Below, one piece after another: positions 18,096 through 27,299 of a stretch of DNA of 27,887 nt. Where the stretch lies: positions 1-27,887 of IMG/VR virus record IMGVR_UViG_3300043444_000022; one strand, 5' to 3'. Each line of letters begins with the position of its first letter. Positions within the stretch are counted from its first letter, which is position 1. Both the position numbers and the translations under genes were made by a program. Below the pieces are notes generated by a model, which did not search any database, had not been told where the DNA came from, and saw nothing but the letters and a program-made list of their open reading frames with translations. The stretch is from a virus.

Positions 18096-19436
18096 TTACC
18101 CAAAAAATGATTCCAAGTCTGAAGATACTTCAAAATGTTCCTCGAACATCTTGTTTGCGTTTTTGATTACAACTGTATCATGATTAGATTTAGTCTTCAA
18201 TTCAGTCAGATAACCAGTCGGTTTTTGCTCAGCCAAGTCGATATAATGTTGAGCAATCACTTTTCTGTCGAATTGTTTAATCAATTCATAATTATTTAGC
18301 TGAATCTGTCTGTAGTCCTGCTCGCTCATATTACAGAATTCTTGGATCTTTTCACCATATTGTTTCGGTGTAGAACCCTTCTTAATCATACAGTAATTGA
18401 TGCCAGCTTTAAGAACTACACCCATACCTTCTTCGTTGTTGGAGACACCATAATTGATGGCAATAGGAACAGTACCAATACGCATAGCATCAATAACAAC
18501 TCGGTTAAAGTGTTCACCGAAAGTGTTAGACCAGCTTGGGTCAACCAAGAACTTGGAAGTAGCCAGAATCTCATCACGCTTTTGACCAGAGATAAAGCCA
18601 AGGTACTCGAAGTTACCAGCTTCTGCGTTTTCCCAAATACGCTTGTTCAAACGATCTTCAGTTGCATCTGGATCGTATTCTTTGGTGCAGTAGTATTCTT
18701 CTTTACACTTATCTTTAGACATCATATAAGCTGCTTCAATACCATAGCCACCAACCAAAGTTTTAACTCCTGGCATATATGGAACTGCGCGAATCAAATC
18801 ATCGACACGTTTCCAACGCTTGAATGTCTGGATTGATAGAATCTTATTCTCACGATTAGCAAATGGTGGAGTTTCAGGAACACCAGCAATATCTTGAGGA
18901 TTCAAAATCAAAGCACGTGGAACATTCATAAAGTCAGCTGACTCATACGCAGCTGGATGCACACAAGCAAGACCAGCGAAGTGTTGCTCGAACTTCTGAA
19001 TCCATGGGTAAAGTTTCTTTAGATTGGCATCGTGAATAATGGCAACCTGTTTAGACTTAACCTTCTCAATCATCGGCAACCAATCAAGATACTTTTCAGT
19101 GTCTTTGTTCTTGAAGCCAAAGATAGATTGCCAAATTACGATATCGTGTTTATTGGCATCTTCAACAAATTGATTGATAGAATCTTTAACGAGATAAGAG
19201 TAATATGGTGCGATCCAACCATCACCCTGATGAACAGGGTAACCAGAACCAACACCAATCTCATAACCCTCTTTCAGAGTAGTTGGAATTTCAACTGGGC
19301 GAACTGTTTTAGTACCCTTCAAATATGCGAAGTTTACTTCGTGACCAAGTTCTTTAAGTCCAGCCATCAAATGCTCACAGTGGTTAATAATACCACCGAA
19401 GTTATTGAATGTATGCATTACCATTAAAATTTTCAT
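18096..19436 (-). CDS. GT4-type glycosyltransferase with C-terminal clamp-binding-like tail
   Basis: The 446-residue GT-B-fold enzyme transfers a sugar or similar group from a nucleotide donor. The N-terminal half has the GT4 loop (FNNFGGIINHCEHLMAGL), and the donor-binding half has SIQTFKRWKRVDDLIRA (201-217) and GEHFNRVVIDAM (around 307-318), the E-x7-E-like element. It ends in SSDLESFFG, nearly the same as the polymerase tail SSLEDFFG, which suggests clamp docking and hence DNA as acceptor. It follows the oxygenase and cytidylyltransferase with a 1-base gap. The start is the ATG with AAGG upstream; an upstream TTG reading is rejected. Hydroxymethylated base in phage DNA is the likely acceptor, though cell-envelope glycosylation cannot be excluded. 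Confidence 0.82.
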   Translation of the reverse strand: MKILMVMHTFNNFGGIINHCEHLMAGLKELGHEVNFAYLKGTKTVRPVEIPTTLKEGYEIGVGSGYPVHQGDGWIAPYYSYLVKDSINQFVEDANKHDIVIWQSIFGFKNKDTEKYLDWLPMIEKVKSKQVAIIHDANLKKLYPWIQKFEQHFAGLACVHPAAYESADFMNVPRALILNPQDIAGVPETPPFANRENKILSIQTFKRWKRVDDLIRAVPYMPGVKTLVGGYGIEAAYMMSKDKCKEEYYCTKEYDPDATEDRLNKRIWENAEAGNFEYLGFISGQKRDEILATSKFLVDPSWSNTFGEHFNRVVIDAMRIGTVPIAINYGVSNNEEGMGVVLKAGINYCMIKKGSTPKQYGEKIQEFCNMSEQDYRQIQLNNYELIKQFDRKVIAQHYIDLAEQKPTGYLTELKTKSNHDTVVIKNANKMFEEHFEVSSDLESFFG

Positions 19437-19437
19437 A

Positions 19438-19863
19438 TTAACCTTTTTGCAATTCAAGTTTATGTATTCTTTGTCTTAATTCAGTAGTAGAGAAAGAATG
19501 TTCACGTTTATTAAAGTATACCTCGATTCCGCGATTTAAGCAAATTTGTTTTCCTGTGAAATCTTTTGTTGCATATTCCTCACCAAGAATACGAACATTG
19601 ACAGGAAGAATCAATAGCAAATCTTCTAAATCTTTTTCAGTTGAATATACAATTATTTCATCAATATACTTAACTGCCTTTAGTTGTAAGTATCGCTCAA
19701 CAACACTTTGAATAGGTGTATTCTTTGTATCTGGGCGATCAATCGTTGGATCTGTTTGCAAGCCAACTATAAGATAGTCACATTGTTTCTTCGCATCTTC
19801 GAGCATGACTATATGACCTGCATGAAGCAGGTCAAATGTTGAACAGGTAAAACCGACTTTCAT
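19438..19863 (-). CDS. TagD/HldE-like cytidylyltransferase
   Basis: The 141-residue enzyme belongs to the HxGH nucleotidylyltransferase superfamily. STFDLLHAGH (8-17) gives the HxGH catalytic site, and SFSTTELRQ near the C-terminus is the counterpart of the ISTT-x-I element. The closest patterns are glycerol-3-phosphate cytidylyltransferase (TagD) and the nucleotidyl domain of HldE. It would activate a phosphorylated polyol or sugar to a CDP or ADP derivative. Lying between the oxygenase and the glycosyltransferase, it probably makes the donor used to decorate the oxidised base. The exact substrate cannot be read from sequence. Confidence 0.85.
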   Translation of the reverse strand: MKVGFTCSTFDLLHAGHIVMLEDAKKQCDYLIVGLQTDPTIDRPDTKNTPIQSVVERYLQLKAVKYIDEIIVYSTEKDLEDLLLILPVNVRILGEEYATKDFTGKQICLNRGIEVYFNKREHSFSTTELRQRIHKLELQKG

Positions 19864-19864
19864 T

Positions 19865-21214
19865 TTAGAAGAATTCCTCTAAAGAAGATTTCTCACCAGC
19901 TTCTGGGTGATACTTAAGTAACTCTTCACGACCAAGTTTCTGTTCGCAATAGTCATACCACTCTTGGCTAAACCACATACCTTCAGATACACCATTCCAG
20001 AGTTTTTTCTGCATTGGATGTTCTTTGTTATTCTTACGATCTTCAACAAACTGGAAACGGCAATCTTCGTATTCTTTGCTACCAAGTTGAAGCATACCTT
20101 CACGCAAGTAGCAAACAAGAGAGATACGCTCAGCTTCATCGTCACCAAGAACGATCGGTGTATTACCGTGAATGACTTCGTGGTTGTTAATCAAAAGTAA
20201 ATCGCCAGGACGAACATTCACTGCAACACGATACTCAGGTGCAATCAAATATCCACCAGTGTAATTACCATTATTCGAGAGAACAAGTAAGTTAGACAAA
20301 CCATCAGAGAAATCCCCAGCGTCTCTATGAGCAGCAGTTCTGAAAGTTTTATTAACAGTGATAGTAGTAAATGGAGTTCCAGGAACTACGAAACGAGGAT
20401 CGATAGTGGAAGCAGCTTCCATTTGATTTTTATATCTTCCTGGTATCATATCTTTGAAACCCTTAGAAAGAGTTTGTAAGAATTCATATGCAAGAGAAAA
20501 CTTTTCTGGAGACTTCGCAGTATATGCAGTGGCACGACCATAAGGGATACGAGGATAACGATCGTACCAGCCAGCGATACCAGAGAATACAGAGTTAGCG
20601 TAAGTAGTTGCGCAGATAAGTCTATCAGCTACCCAGTTCGCTTGTTTGATTTGTTCTTCTTTAGAAGAATTGCGTGTTTTCTCAACCCACTCTTCGAAGT
20701 TAAAGTTTACTTCTTTGGTTCTTTCAATCGACCAAACATTGTTACGATTTGATGGAGTTGGTTTCTTACCAGCATGACGTTTTTTAATTTCTTCAATAGG
20801 ATCTTCGCCGAATAGATTATCAACTGGATCTAGGAAATACTCAACGATATCATATTCGTATTCAGTTACCCATTCGCGATTACCAAGTTTCTCACCACGT
20901 GGACCTGCAGCCATACCACGATTTTGCGTTTCAGTTGCAGCTTCTCTCAAACCAGCATACGCTGCATCTTGTTGCTCTTTACTGAAGTAGTTCTTTCTAA
21001 ACTTAAAGATGATACGAGATTCATCATGACCCTGTTCGCATGAACCACAGTCACTTGGAACATTGCAGGTAGCCTGAGTAGCCAAATCGCAGTTCGGTGG
21101 TGCGTAAACATCGCAGTCTTCTTCAACTAGAACATCGTAATGCGATTCATCTAGGAATTGACCCAACAGATGTTCACTATCATATTTTCTATCGGCAACG
21201 ATAACTTTAACCAT
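19865..21214 (-). CDS. TET/JBP-like 2-oxoglutarate Fe(II) dioxygenase with clamp-binding-like tail
   Basis: The 449-residue protein has a double-stranded beta-helix core at about 265-375. Iron ligands are H296-R-D298 in TAAHRDAGDF and H349 in EVIHGNTPI, and R363 in ERISLVCYLRE fits the 2-oxoglutarate-binding arginine. The surrounding pattern (LSNLLVLSN, GGYLIAPEY, VRPGDLLLINNHE) resembles the TET/JBP group that oxidises 5-methylcytosine or thymine in DNA. An N-terminal cysteine cluster (C34, C42, C50, C56, C59, with H63) may bind zinc. The protein ends KSSLEEFF, like the polymerase tail, suggesting clamp recruitment. AAGGAG precedes the ATG. Substrate base (thymine or 5mC) unknown; no DNA methyltransferase is in the window. 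Confidence 0.85.
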   Translation of the reverse strand: MVKVIVADRKYDSEHLLGQFLDESHYDVLVEEDCDVYAPPNCDLATQATCNVPSDCGSCEQGHDESRIIFKFRKNYFSKEQQDAAYAGLREAATETQNRGMAAGPRGEKLGNREWVTEYEYDIVEYFLDPVDNLFGEDPIEEIKKRHAGKKPTPSNRNNVWSIERTKEVNFNFEEWVEKTRNSSKEEQIKQANWVADRLICATTYANSVFSGIAGWYDRYPRIPYGRATAYTAKSPEKFSLAYEFLQTLSKGFKDMIPGRYKNQMEAASTIDPRFVVPGTPFTTITVNKTFRTAAHRDAGDFSDGLSNLLVLSNNGNYTGGYLIAPEYRVAVNVRPGDLLLINNHEVIHGNTPIVLGDDEAERISLVCYLREGMLQLGSKEYEDCRFQFVEDRKNNKEHPMQKKLWNGVSEGMWFSQEWYDYCEQKLGREELLKYHPEAGEKSSLEEFF

Positions 21215-21225
21215 ATTTTTTCTCC

Positions 21226-22626
21226 TTAAAACTTAAATCCACTAAATTCATCACCATTATGTATTCGTTTGCCAAAATCACTTTTATCGAACATTGGTGT
21301 ATCAACAGACTTCTTTTGCCCAGAATCAGAAAGTCCAGACTGAGCAGATACTTCAACATCATAGAGCTTCATCTTAGCTCTATCAATACCAATAACAAAA
21401 CGCTTATAATATCCTGGGTCATTATAGCGATTCTTTAATTGTTTAACAATAATCTGATTCAACTGCTCTAGTTCCTCATTACTCACAAGGGCGAACATAA
21501 AGTCAGCTGTCGCAGGGAGTCCAAAAGATTCTGAAGTGTCTTCAAGTCCTGGGTCTGAGTTTGTATATCCAGATCGAGTTGTTTGAGTTGCACTAACAAT
21601 AGGTACGTTATATTCAACTGCCAATCCCCTTAGTTCTTCAGCAATAGCCTTAACATATGTATAAGAGTTTACATTTCCACTCATTTTCATACGCTGACTT
21701 GCGCAAATATTCAAGTAGTCAATCATAATAATATCTGGTGCAAAATCACGCTTCATCTTTAGTTCTTCAAGCAAAGCACGGAAGTGACCAGCATGAGCAG
21801 AAGCAGTTGGATATTCCTTGATGATTAACTTACCTTCAGTTTTACTTGCTACTTTATCCAATCTGGAAGTGAAGATATCTTTATCGACAACCTTCAACTC
21901 GTCCATCGTTAGGTTTAGTTTGTTTGCATCAATACGTTCAGCGATTCTTTCCTCAGCCATCTCCATAGTAATATAGAGAACATTATGCCCTTGCGTTAAA
22001 CATGCACCAGCCACATGACACATAAACAAAGATTTACCAACACCAGTACCAGCCAATGCGATGTTCAGAGTTTTCTTTGAGAGTCCACCTTTTGTGATTT
22101 TGTTGAACATATCCAAGTCGAAGGCAACCTTTTCTTCAACTCGATGATAGAACTCATACCTAGAGTCAGCATCTTGTATGTAATCATGACCAACGTGATT
22201 ATCAAAAGAGATGGCAAGAGCATCACTAAGGATAGAAGGAATTGAGTCCTGCGTGTGGACTGGATCTCTACCTTCAATGATTTTGATCGAACCCAGAATC
22301 GCATTATAGACTGCCCTGTCCTTACAGAATTTTTCTGTATTTTGAATTAACCACTCTTCGTTTGGCTCTTTGTTGTCCAAAGAATTAACGAACTCTTGAA
22401 TCTCAGGAACTTCTTTATCAGTTAGTCCCTTTTGATTGGCAACTTCAATTGAGATAACTTCTTTTGAAGCTGGTTTATTATACTGCTCAAAGAACTTAAT
22501 TAGTAAAGAAGCAACCATGGCTTCTTTTCTATCAGCAAAGTATTCTTTCTTTAGATGAGGAACTACCTTTCGGCAGTATTCCTCATTGTGAATCAGGTTC
22601 GATAGGATCGCCTGTTCTATTCTCAT
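21226..22626 (-). CDS. 41: Replicative DNA helicase, T4 gp41-like (DnaB family)
   Basis: Hexameric 5'-3' helicase that unwinds the fork and partners primase gp61. It is 466 residues long (T4: 475). An N-terminal helical domain begins MRIEQAILSNL, and the RecA-type motor carries Walker A AGTGVGKS (192-199) and Walker B DIIMIDYLN (298-306). VSATQTTRSGY matches the H3 region. The C-terminus is hydrophilic and lacks the clamp-binding tail seen on the polymerase. The ATG is preferred over a GTG three codons earlier because AGGTGG lies at proper spacing. It overlaps the upstream small gene by 44 bases and is followed directly by the oxygenase of the modification cassette. Confidence 0.95.
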   Translation of the reverse strand: MRIEQAILSNLIHNEEYCRKVVPHLKKEYFADRKEAMVASLLIKFFEQYNKPASKEVISIEVANQKGLTDKEVPEIQEFVNSLDNKEPNEEWLIQNTEKFCKDRAVYNAILGSIKIIEGRDPVHTQDSIPSILSDALAISFDNHVGHDYIQDADSRYEFYHRVEEKVAFDLDMFNKITKGGLSKKTLNIALAGTGVGKSLFMCHVAGACLTQGHNVLYITMEMAEERIAERIDANKLNLTMDELKVVDKDIFTSRLDKVASKTEGKLIIKEYPTASAHAGHFRALLEELKMKRDFAPDIIMIDYLNICASQRMKMSGNVNSYTYVKAIAEELRGLAVEYNVPIVSATQTTRSGYTNSDPGLEDTSESFGLPATADFMFALVSNEELEQLNQIIVKQLKNRYNDPGYYKRFVIGIDRAKMKLYDVEVSAQSGLSDSGQKKSVDTPMFDKSDFGKRIHNGDEFSGFKF

Positions 22627-22918
22627 CAACACCACCTGTATAAGTTAAATCATTATTTTGTATACCGTAGACAATTAACTCTTGTAAGAAATCACCAAGA
22701 TACTGTTCGAATTCTTGTTTATCATATTCAACATTATTGTTTTGGTGAATCTCATAATCAAACATAATTTTAAGAGAATCATCTACTTCTTCGAAGCCAA
22801 CTCTACCGTATGAAAAAATTATACCTGAGTATGGACTTTCTGTCAATTTTATCGCATTCATACCATTGTGTTTATTTTCTAACACAACATGTGGTCTTAC
22901 AAGATTATTCGTCATCAT
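22583..22918 (-). CDS. Small protein between uvsX and helicase (positional equivalent of T4 gene 40)
   Basis: The protein of about 112 residues has mixed beta and helical character (NAIKLTESPYSGIIFSYGRV, QEFEQYLGDFLQELIVYGI) and a hydrophilic tail. I know no domain for it. It occupies the place of T4 gene 40 in the uvsX-40-41 order, but similarity to gp40 is not established. The start is uncertain: the tandem ATGATG gives MMTNN and overlaps the uvsX end by 14 bases, while an ATG 11 codons earlier (MKISSKN) is also open. Neither has a strong ribosome site, so coupling to uvsX translation is likely. Confidence 0.65.
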   Translation of the reverse strand: MMTNNLVRPHVVLENKHNGMNAIKLTESPYSGIIFSYGRVGFEEVDDSLKIMFDYEIHQNNNVEYDKQEFEQYLGDFLQELIVYGIQNNDLTYTGGVDENRTGDPIEPDSQ

Positions 22919-24274: not shown

Positions 24275-24814
24275 TTATTTCTTTTGCGGAATGTCAAATA
24301 CAAAGGTAACTCTTACGCAGTCTCCAATGTTTTTAGCTCCATGTGGTAATTTATTGTTAAACCAAAGAAGTGTTCCTGGCTCAACAGTTACAGATTCACC
24401 ACCAACTGTATATATGTATCTACCCTGTATTGATAGGTGATACCTGTCTCGAGTTTGATAATATGTTCCAATGTCTATGTGTTCACCAACTTCACCACCA
24501 ACTGGTAGTGAGAGAAAGCCACATCTCGACCAACGCTTAAAGTGTCTACGCAAGAATCCTAATACTTCAGTATGGTGTTTGCATGCTGCTGTTGGTATGC
24601 AAATTTCAGTGTCGCCGACATACTCATTCTCATTAGTAACACCACCAACAACTAACTGCAAAACACCTGCAGAAACTTCAGGAAACCCACGATCTAACAT
24701 TGATTGAGCACCATCTACTTTAGTTTGAGCACCCCAATCTTCTGGATGTGCTTCCAACTGTTTCAGTATCTTTGAAACATTTATCCCAGTCTTAATTATT
24801 TTAATGTTAGCCAA
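24275..24814 (-). CDS. Aspartyl/asparaginyl beta-hydroxylase-like 2OG oxygenase
   Basis: The 179-residue protein has the jelly-roll pattern of the AspH family. EHIDIG gives H112-x-D114, RDRYHLSIQG and PGTLLWFNNKLPHGA follow with the distal histidine H158, and R168 in CVRVTFVFDI fits the 2-oxoglutarate-binding arginine. Relatives hydroxylate protein side chains, and phage members are of unknown substrate. I chose a TTG start inside the last codons of the polymerase gene because GGAGGA lies five bases before it. A longer TTG reading has no such site and the first in-frame ATG would remove a quarter of the protein. It is distinct from the TET/JBP-like oxygenase of the modification cassette. Confidence 0.75.
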   Translation of the reverse strand: MANIKIIKTGINVSKILKQLEAHPEDWGAQTKVDGAQSMLDRGFPEVSAGVLQLVVGGVTNENEYVGDTEICIPTAACKHHTEVLGFLRRHFKRWSRCGFLSLPVGGEVGEHIDIGTYYQTRDRYHLSIQGRYIYTVGGESVTVEPGTLLWFNNKLPHGAKNIGDCVRVTFVFDIPQKK

Positions 24815-27299
24815 AGAAATCCTCCAGACTAGATTGTTCCTCGCACTTCCAACCAAGTGGCTCGATTACAGTTTGCATAGCATCAAGGAAAGTCTTTTGA
24901 AATTGTAAATCATAATCAATGAAACTATGTAGTCCAAAATCCTTTGGTAGTTCTTGTGTGAATGCAATAACATCTTCGTTAAATGGGTTTGGTTTGCGAA
25001 CATAAACGAACTTAATCTTCTCACCCTCTTTAATTGGTTGATACTTTTTATCTAGCCCAAGTCGTTTTAGGTGGTGATTGAATAACAAAGAACCACGAAC
25101 ATGGATAGGTGTTCCTTTCGAATAGATCGGAGAACCAGCATACTGTTTCAATCCATTGACGCCACGAGGGAATGCAATATCTTCAACTGGCATCTTGAGA
25201 AACTCTTCACGAAAATCTGTGATATATTTATGTAAGTCTTTCTCAGTTCCATGTAGAATTACTTGCAGGGAGTCCTTTAGTTTATCACGAATCACTGCAG
25301 GTGTAGATGACTTGACCATCTCAAGACCCATCACCTTGACTTTAGGTTTCGCGAACTGAACACCCTCAGAGTTATGTACGTTTAGAACATAGCGTTTCTT
25401 GGCAGTCCAGATACCTTTGTCGGCAAGAACTTCTCGCTTCATTACCATCTTCTGAGAATACGCATTCATATACTCGGCTAATTCTTGATACCCCTGATCG
25501 ATAAATGGTTGGAAAACATCTTCGCAGATCTTGTCCATAAACTTAATCTTTGCAGCAGTATCTTTACCATCACATACTTTCTCAACCAAGTGTTCAAGTG
25601 TAAGATAAATTGAGTCAGTGTCAATAGCAATGACGAAATCTTTACCCTCTGTCTTGAGAGTTTTGTTAAGGAATGCGTTCAACTTATTAGCCATCCAACG
25701 AATGGACAACTGACCAGAAGTAGTAATTCCTTCAGCCATACGAATATCGAAGTATCGGAAATACTGATTACCCATCGCACCGTAAGCAGAGTTCAAAGCA
25801 ATCTTCATAGCCATCTGCAGGTTGTTAAGACGAGAGATATCTTTCAACAAGTGTTTTTGCGACTTGTCGTTTTGATATTCCTGCTCAACCTTGAGCATCT
25901 GCTTCTTGAATTTACTTCTGTCAGAATACATCTTTTCCATCAACTCTGGCATAAACCCTTTGATGTCTCTGCGATAACACCAACCATTTGCTGTTAAAGT
26001 CATATCTCTACGTTTAACATATGTAGTGTCAATCTCTTGGTTCAGCATCTTATCGACAGTTACACCAGAAACCTTTTCTGGAAGTAGAGTTTCTGGACTG
26101 ATGTTATACTGCATAATCAGGTGCGGATAGAGAGAGTTTAAGTCAAAAGAAGCAACCCACTTATGTTGGCCAACAAGTGGATCTTTAACATAAGCACCCT
26201 CAAACGATTCAGACTTAAACGAACTACTCTTTTGCGGAATAACAATGTTCTTTTTACGCAGGTGATTGTAAATGATAGCATCCCACATACGAACCTGAGA
26301 ATAAACATCTTCGTAGTTAATCTTGGCATTATACGCCATGGTCAAACACAATTCGATAAGTTTCATCTTATCTTCAAGTTGATGAACAAGTTCAACGTCA
26401 TGAATGTTATACTCAACGAATTGTTGCCAGTAATTTGTATAAAAGTCTTTGAATGATTCGCCAGGATTTTCCTTCTTCTTATCACCAAGTTCTTGTTCAG
26501 CGATGTAATCCAGACGATAAGATTCTTGTTTAGTATAGGTAAACTTTTTATACAGGTCCAAGTAGTCTAGCTGAGAAATACCATTCCACTCATAGGTAAC
26601 TTCCTCGTTGCCTTTGACGAAAATCTTACGTTCATTAATCAATGCCCATGGTGACAATTTACTTGCTGTGGTTTCACCAAGTTCACGAATAATACGTTTA
26701 GTCAGATAAGGAATATCGAAGAATGTGGTGTTCCAACCAGTGATTACGTCTGGGTAATTCTGTTGCCAGAAAATCATAAACTCTTTTAGTAGATGATGTT
26801 CATCTTGACAATGACGATAGACTACATCATCGCGACCATGAACGAAAGCTCTAGACCCGAATGTGATAATACGCTTACTACTTAAATCTTTAATAGTAAT
26901 TAGAAGGACTTCTTCGTTGGCAGTTTTAATGTCTGGAAAGCCAGAGTCAGTTGCAGTTTCGATGTCAATAGTGAAGACTTTAATCTGTTCCATATCCCAG
27001 CGAATGTCACTCTCATAAGTGTCGCTGATGTACTGTGATGTGTAGTTTGTGTTGCCATAAACATTGAACCCAGAAACATCTTTATACTTGTCAACGAAGT
27101 CACGTGTTTCGCGAAGAGTTCCTGGCTTAACTTCATCTACCACCTCACCATCTAGAGTTCGCCATTGAGACGATTCGTTTTTAGATGTAACGTAAAGTGT
27201 TGGGTAATAGTCTATCTTACGATTAACTCTCTTACCGTTTTCCAAACCTCGGACGTATAGTTTATTTCCGAAGGGAAAAACATTGGTGTAAAAAATCAT
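24807..27299 (-). CDS. 43: Family B DNA polymerase, T4 gp43-like
   Basis: Replicative polymerase with proofreading, 830 residues (T4: 898). Exonuclease motifs are D112-x-E114 (IDIETATD), N190 to D195 (NTTFFD) and Y297 to D301 (YNIHD). Polymerase motif A is DLNSLYP (386-392), motif B is KIALNSAYG (499-507) and motif C is DTDS (560-563). All catalytic residues are present, so polymerase and proofreading should both be active. The C-terminus SSLEDFFG matches the sliding-clamp-binding tail of T4/RB69 gp43. The ATG lies three bases after the exonuclease stop with a weak GGAAAA site. Its last codons hold the ribosome site and TTG start of the next gene. Confidence 0.97.
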   Translation of the reverse strand: MIFYTNVFPFGNKLYVRGLENGKRVNRKIDYYPTLYVTSKNESSQWRTLDGEVVDEVKPGTLRETRDFVDKYKDVSGFNVYGNTNYTSQYISDTYESDIRWDMEQIKVFTIDIETATDSGFPDIKTANEEVLLITIKDLSSKRIITFGSRAFVHGRDDVVYRHCQDEHHLLKEFMIFWQQNYPDVITGWNTTFFDIPYLTKRIIRELGETTASKLSPWALINERKIFVKGNEEVTYEWNGISQLDYLDLYKKFTYTKQESYRLDYIAEQELGDKKKENPGESFKDFYTNYWQQFVEYNIHDVELVHQLEDKMKLIELCLTMAYNAKINYEDVYSQVRMWDAIIYNHLRKKNIVIPQKSSSFKSESFEGAYVKDPLVGQHKWVASFDLNSLYPHLIMQYNISPETLLPEKVSGVTVDKMLNQEIDTTYVKRRDMTLTANGWCYRRDIKGFMPELMEKMYSDRSKFKKQMLKVEQEYQNDKSQKHLLKDISRLNNLQMAMKIALNSAYGAMGNQYFRYFDIRMAEGITTSGQLSIRWMANKLNAFLNKTLKTEGKDFVIAIDTDSIYLTLEHLVEKVCDGKDTAAKIKFMDKICEDVFQPFIDQGYQELAEYMNAYSQKMVMKREVLADKGIWTAKKRYVLNVHNSEGVQFAKPKVKVMGLEMVKSSTPAVIRDKLKDSLQVILHGTEKDLHKYITDFREEFLKMPVEDIAFPRGVNGLKQYAGSPIYSKGTPIHVRGSLLFNHHLKRLGLDKKYQPIKEGEKIKFVYVRKPNPFNEDVIAFTQELPKDFGLHSFIDYDLQFQKTFLDAMQTVIEPLGWKCEEQSSLEDFFG
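24820..24825 (-). promoter_or_regulatory. Ribosome site inside the polymerase tail that sets a TTG start
   Basis: GGAGGA, read on the minus strand, encodes part of the clamp-binding tail of the polymerase and lies five bases before the TTG chosen for the hydroxylase-like gene. It is among the strongest Shine-Dalgarno matches in the window and decides the start of that gene. The overlap makes coupled translation likely. Confidence 0.75.

Follow-up and report, generated by a model that had tools for sequence, protein, structure and literature searches.

The closest described counterparts of the peptides considered here are the clamp-docking C-termini of phages T4 and RB69. Cryo-electron microscopy of the T4 proteins has shown that the SLDFLF peptide of the DNA polymerase gp43 lies in a hydrophobic pocket of the sliding clamp gp45 (PMC12746103), and gp55 and gp33 bind gp45 via a C-terminal LDFL motif (PMC9690074), the three C-termini being ..EEKASLDFLFG (gp43), ..SLDFLYEAND (gp55) and ..TLDFLL (gp33). 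We have examined a 27,887-base phage fragment with T4-like replication genes, IMG/VR virus record IMGVR_UViG_3300043444_000022 (the window, meaning the whole of this stretch; the record covers only 27.9 kb), in which a family B DNA polymerase, a TET/JBP-like oxygenase and a glycosyltransferase end in closely similar tails. An earlier reading of the letters by a model (the original prediction) had proposed that these tails dock on the phage clamp, with the T4/RB69 polymerase peptide as precedent, and the cryo-electron microscopy bears that precedent out. The window tails resemble the T4 and RB69 peptides (gp43 SLDFLF, gp55/gp33 LDFL) in C-terminal position, flexible attachment, the S/D-L-acidic-x-F-F pattern and the presence of a gp45-type clamp in the lineage, but differ in being carried also by base-modifying enzymes of several unrelated folds. 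We consider it highly probable that they are clamp-interacting peptides that dock these enzymes on a phage gp45-type clamp. A similar logic is seen in eukaryotic maintenance methylation, where DNMT1 carries a PCNA-binding PIP box; there, likewise, a short peptide recruits a DNA-modifying enzyme to a sliding clamp, although peptide, clamp, enzyme and chemistry are all unrelated.

Among DNA-modifying phage enzymes, the only link to a clamp in the literature that we found (mostly outside subscription journals) is that of T4 alpha-glucosyltransferase, whose contact with gp45 was reported by Sommer (2004), cited in a study that repeated the pull-down (PMC13216743). This too is a DNA-modifying glycosyltransferase that contacts the phage clamp, and its GT-B fold resembles the prediction for the window enzyme. 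The interaction named in the original prediction is thus real, but the T4 enzyme ends FKEQFDIITK and lacks a comparable tail, so that its mode of contact must be another, and the T4 case involves no oxygenase, kinase or amino-acid transferase. Thymidine hypermodification in phages ViI, phiW-14 and M6, with a 5-hydroxymethyldeoxyuridine (5-hmdU) kinase and an amino acid:DNA transferase (ADDT), shares the families PF18747, PF18723 and PF18724 with relatives of the window or with our comparator phages; in contrast to those pathways, the window lineage is predicted to hydroxylate by a TET/JBP enzyme acting on DNA. A clamp-docking tail on enzymes of the 5-hmdU kinase or ADDT type was not described in the literature found. 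The pairing of a JBP-type oxygenase with a glycosyltransferase is also that of the kinetoplastid base J pathway (JBP1/2 plus a glucosyltransferase), from which the window differs in being phage DNA, in its predicted clamp-docking tails and in its glycosyltransferase.

All three genes lie on the minus strand, and the tails, read from the open reading frames (ORFs), are exactly as originally written. The 830 aa polymerase (24807..27299; PF00136, E 2.7e-27) ends ..EEQSSLEDFFG, also given as ..CEEQSSLEDFFG, its predicted clamp-interacting peptide SSLEDFFG occupying 24810..24833; this gene sits outside the span 18096-21214 to which the original prediction was attached. The oxygenase ends ..GEKSSLEEFF (SSLEEFF at 19868..19888) and the glycosyltransferase ..EVSSDLESFFG (SSDLESFFG at 18099..18125). 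The tail was also said to be unique to these proteins, and none of the 26 remaining window genes ends [LIMV]xxFF.

The tails are conserved. A scan based on the oxygenase yielded 80 viral loci (66-94% identity), in which the tail is kept in 79/79 complete oxygenases and 47/47 polymerases. A tblastn search of the 'phages' collection with the glycosyltransferase gave no match, and viral contigs were scanned instead, giving 47 loci; 41/41 complete close relatives of the enzyme end [LM][DE]x[FL]F[GA], and the oxygenases beside them (42-94% identical) end in the tail itself or in one of the variants LDEFFA, VLDFL and GDEWFA. The tail is missing from two distant glycosyltransferases (30%), neither of which has an oxygenase nearby. 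The entropy among 55 non-redundant oxygenases is 0.31 bit at Leu445 and 0.13 bit at each of Phe448 and Phe449, against 1.9-3.0 in the linker (440-443); in 21 glycosyltransferases it is 0.28 at Leu448 and 0 bit at Phe452, against 1.8-2.8 in linker 444-447. The tail Leu is spelled by five codons and each Phe by both of its codons, and selection therefore acts on the peptide. Both enzymes thus display the fixed tail behind a freely varying linker that was to be expected of a docking peptide. In AlphaFold2 models the per-residue confidence (pLDDT) averages 81 for the oxygenase and 73 for the glycosyltransferase but is below 50 at residues 444-449 of the former and 433-453 of the latter, and both tails are predicted to be disordered. 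The arrangement, a C-terminal or near-C-terminal S/T-L-[DE]-x-F-[FL] on a flexible linker, is that of a gp45 clamp-interacting peptide. The strict form [LIMV]..FF.?$ ends only 4/942 other gene-like ORFs of the 80 loci (1.1 expected from shuffled C-termini), and these four are two glycosyltransferase-family and two ADDT-family proteins.

No gp45-type clamp gene was found within the 27.9 kb window fragment, and relatives were used in its place. Such a clamp is encoded in 8/12 longer relatives and matches T4 and RB69 gp45 by profile over its full length (E 4e-33); Pfam PF02916 proved too weak for divergent clamps, for which phmmer with T4 gp45 performed better. The relatives' homologues of the late sigma factor gp55 carry APLDNFIG, VDLDDFLG, TLDDFIES or SLDDFIGE near the C-terminus, so that in the window's lineage one motif occurs on both the polymerase and the late sigma factor. 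These findings, the T4 structure and the co-variation of tails with the polymerase described below support the originally proposed clamp reading, and from them we infer physical binding.

The 449 aa oxygenase (19865..21214) contains a PF12851 Tet_JBP domain (E 3.6e-26), its predicted fold matches NgTET1, CcTET and TET2, and residues H296, D298, H345, H349 and R363, in the HxD..H..R pattern, are invariant. Its predicted reaction is hydroxylation, within DNA, of the methyl group carried by thymine or by 5-methylcytosine. Its homologues in Cr30 (L082 12001-13329), DLP_6 (L083 12001-13347) and S-CBWM1 (L139 3729-5165) bear the annotation 'SNF2 DNA repair protein', which seems to be wrong. The glycosyltransferase (18096..19457; PF00534, E 2.3e-10) matches PF00534 and PF13692 only; it falls by sequence in none of PF11440, PF09198 or the TET-associated glycosyltransferases (TAGT, PF20691), and has no PDB sequence match. 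Its predicted fold is GT-B with a donor-binding domain, as in T4 AGT-like DNA glucosyltransferases, and matches many GT-B enzymes, including 1xv5 and T4 alpha-glucosyltransferase with 5-hydroxymethyluracil (hmU) DNA (1y8z, E 3e-9). It probably glycosylates the hydroxylated base. Between the two enzymes lies a tail-less cytidylyltransferase-like protein (19438..19863, minus strand; PF01467, E 1.9e-14; phrog_7878, heptose-1-phosphate adenylyltransferase-like, E 3e-36), which may make the activated donor.

Most relatives lack the cytidylyltransferase and glycosyltransferase after the oxygenase and have there a class II amidotransferase, a GNAT protein, an ADDT (PF18724) and a P-loop kinase (PF18751). 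This gene set is a thymidine-hypermodification cluster, and the TET/JBP enzyme is likely to be the source of 5-hydroxymethyluracil in the DNA of the relatives that bear it. Because ADDT and P-loop kinase lie downstream in these relatives, thymine is the more likely target of the oxygenase. Tails of a looser form, L..F, end the ADDT (GLExF[AFL..], 41/41) and the GNAT protein (SLEEFL or VDLNSFL; 47/49, being 35/37 and 12/12). Eight neighbouring families have none: GATase (0/63), P-loop kinase (0/34), amidoligase (0/18), a peptidase-like protein (0/34), DnaB (0/79), UvsX (0/63), a second 2-oxoglutarate oxygenase (0/38) and an exonuclease (0/36). In the window, this second, smaller 2-oxoglutarate/cupin oxygenase (24275-24856, minus strand; PF05118 Asp_Arg_Hydrox) overlaps the end of the polymerase gene, and none of its 38 relatives bears a tail. 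Among window proteins the closest look-alikes of the tail are two: thioredoxin ends ..LLDFLKG, which probably belongs to that protein's last helix, and the DnaB helicase (21226-22635, minus strand) ends EFSGFKF. The FxGFKF-type C-terminus of DnaB recurs among relatives and is perhaps a different docking tail.

Comparator phages, chosen by enzyme homology, show co-variation of the tails with the polymerase: in divergent phages (ViI, Cygsa01, phiW-14 and Vibrio phages) the tail has another sequence, and 5-hmdU kinases, ADDT, TAGT and a Dam methylase follow their own polymerase in this. In ViI the polymerase ends RRVNLLSMMGKKG, the ADDT SVNLMSLLKR, HMUD2 SVSLLGLMRKA and HMUDK_hel SVNLLDRLKKPE; in Cygsa01 the polymerase ends ASVMDFFS, the ADDT NDLMGFFQ, HMUD2 KNVFDLF and the HMUDK_hel-type protein KSVLDLF; in phiW-14 the polymerase ends AKLGAFFV and the ADDT TTGLGSFFR. 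The same is seen in DLP_6 (polymerase TLDSFFA, TET TLGDFFV, TAGT SDLSSFFN), in C48C1 (TLEDFFG, TET SLEEFFV, Dam STLDAFFG) and in Cr30 (ADLSSLFD, TAGT SDLSKLF, TET ..GATLF), the Cr30 ADDT having no tail. In Vibrio phage K469 only 5/221 genes end [KR][KR]LW, namely the polymerase, HMUD2, ADDT, HMUDK_hel and a 107-aa ORF (shuffle expectation 0.0). Over 10 lineages, enzyme tails score on average 20.8 against their own polymerase and 12.5 against those of others (permutation p about 1e-4), and 15/24 fall within their genome's top 3% by likeness to the polymerase tail, in tests that are not independent. The polymerase comparison for VPALA is void, its ORF being interrupted by an apparent intein.

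Further proteins of these phages end in a similar way. Small Cys-rich proteins with a polymerase-type tail occur in K469 (L161:19205-19528, phrog_4789), TSW001 (L212:10944-11165), SKML-39 (L181:562-777) and Cygsa01 (109399-109710), and are possible gp33-like transcription coactivators. In phiW-14, where the polymerase has KLGAFFV, a 105-aa protein (L203:3170-3487) ends GLGAFFT and a 286-aa nuclease-like protein (L200:6996-7856) GLGGFFA; both are candidate clamp binders. A DNA methyltransferase-family protein of VPALA (L140 6336-7112, phrog_757) has the C-terminus STAKRLW, which it shares exactly with the adjacent ADDT and HMUDK_hel-like proteins.

Several observations weigh against a clamp-docking role. 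The motif by itself is not diagnostic: a gp26-like baseplate protein of the same phages ends LEGLQSFF and a second structural-looking protein APLDFFLG, and we rejected the motif alone as proof of docking since both occur on structural-type proteins. In several relatives (G001:C1:64229-64951, G002:C1:7960-8691 and others) the LEGLQSFF end follows a CPVCG motif and is Cys-rich. The gp26-like case would suit the view that these are unremarkable C-termini with no docking role, belonging to a fold or shared through descent or chance. We consider this very improbable, as the carrier folds are unrelated, the tail is predicted to be disordered behind a variable linker, and it is found in six or more enzyme families and changes with the polymerase from one lineage to the next; shuffled C-termini and the K469 genome count led us to reject a chance or compositional origin. 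In Aeromonas phage TSW001 the polymerase ends VNVLKFFKQKEA and the enzymes KTKKLW, a mismatch, with the gp55-like protein (KSVLRFIKTK) resembling the polymerase; and the Vibrio KRLW form is unlike any characterised gp45 peptide, K469 gp55 lacking the KRLW that its polymerase and enzymes share. Both cases could be accommodated if the tails bound some other shared partner in the replisome or in late transcription, such as the clamp loader, single-stranded DNA-binding protein or an RNA polymerase adaptor. That polymerase and gp55 of the window lineage share the motif, and that their T4 homologues bind gp45 by exactly that peptide, makes such a partner improbable. The P-loop kinase of the cluster, expected to act on DNA, bears no tail, and T4 alpha-glucosyltransferase binds gp45 without one of this kind. 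In favour of docking, ADDT, HMUDK_hel or TET of M6, Bane2, Montesquieu, HTVC112P and P12024L, small phages with no known gp45 clamp, have no tail, the absence of a clamp being judged from a weak profile and from taxonomy in a search that was not exhaustive.

Our working hypothesis is that the polymerase tail docks into the pocket of the phage gp45-type clamp, and that oxygenase and glycosyltransferase, bearing the same peptide on flexible linkers, would ride the clamp rings left by replication on the new duplex. The clamp-borne oxygenase would hydroxylate thymine or, less likely, 5-methylcytosine in nascent duplex, and the glycosyltransferase would then cap the hydroxymethyl group, a base-J-like route for which the donor may be made with the help of the cytidylyltransferase. 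In relatives without this glycosyltransferase, ADDT and GNAT would use the same docking, as in other phage families would 5-hmdU kinases, ADDT, TET-associated glycosyltransferases and some DNA methylases. Instead of coupling modification to the fork, docking might stabilise the enzymes or concentrate them locally wherever a clamp is loaded, late-transcription clamps included: gp45 leaves the fork and tracks DNA for late transcription (PMC9690074), and alpha-glucosylation in T4 was found in a 2026 study to be set mostly by the level of expression and not mainly by gp45 contact (PMC13216743). We regard a role of this kind, uncoupled from the fork, as rather unlikely, though the most plausible of the alternatives. 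Against it, wherever a tail-bearing enzyme could be assigned to a family, its expected substrate is DNA in polymeric form, which is what the fork produces, and the nucleotide-level enzymes of the window, ThyX and ribonucleotide reductase, have no tail at their C-termini.

We consider a wider view somewhat more probable than not, namely that phages with gp45-type clamps have repeatedly and independently given their polymerase's clamp peptide to post-replicative DNA-modifying enzymes: TET/JBP enzymes, 5-hmdU kinases, ADDT, TAGT, GT-B glycosyltransferases, GNAT proteins and Dam, the clamp serving as a general hub for hypermodification of nascent DNA and the peptide co-evolving with it. The clamp peptide itself was already known; its occurrence on TET/JBP, 5-hmdU kinase, ADDT, TAGT and GNAT proteins appears to be new, and carries what was a lone T4 case over to many enzymes and phage families, the well-studied ViI among them. 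The tail also provides a sequence signature for spotting further DNA-modifying enzymes among uncharacterised phage proteins. How base modification is completed before nucleases or packaging reach the phage DNA is poorly explained, and a transferable clamp peptide held in common with the polymerase would be a simple and testable answer.

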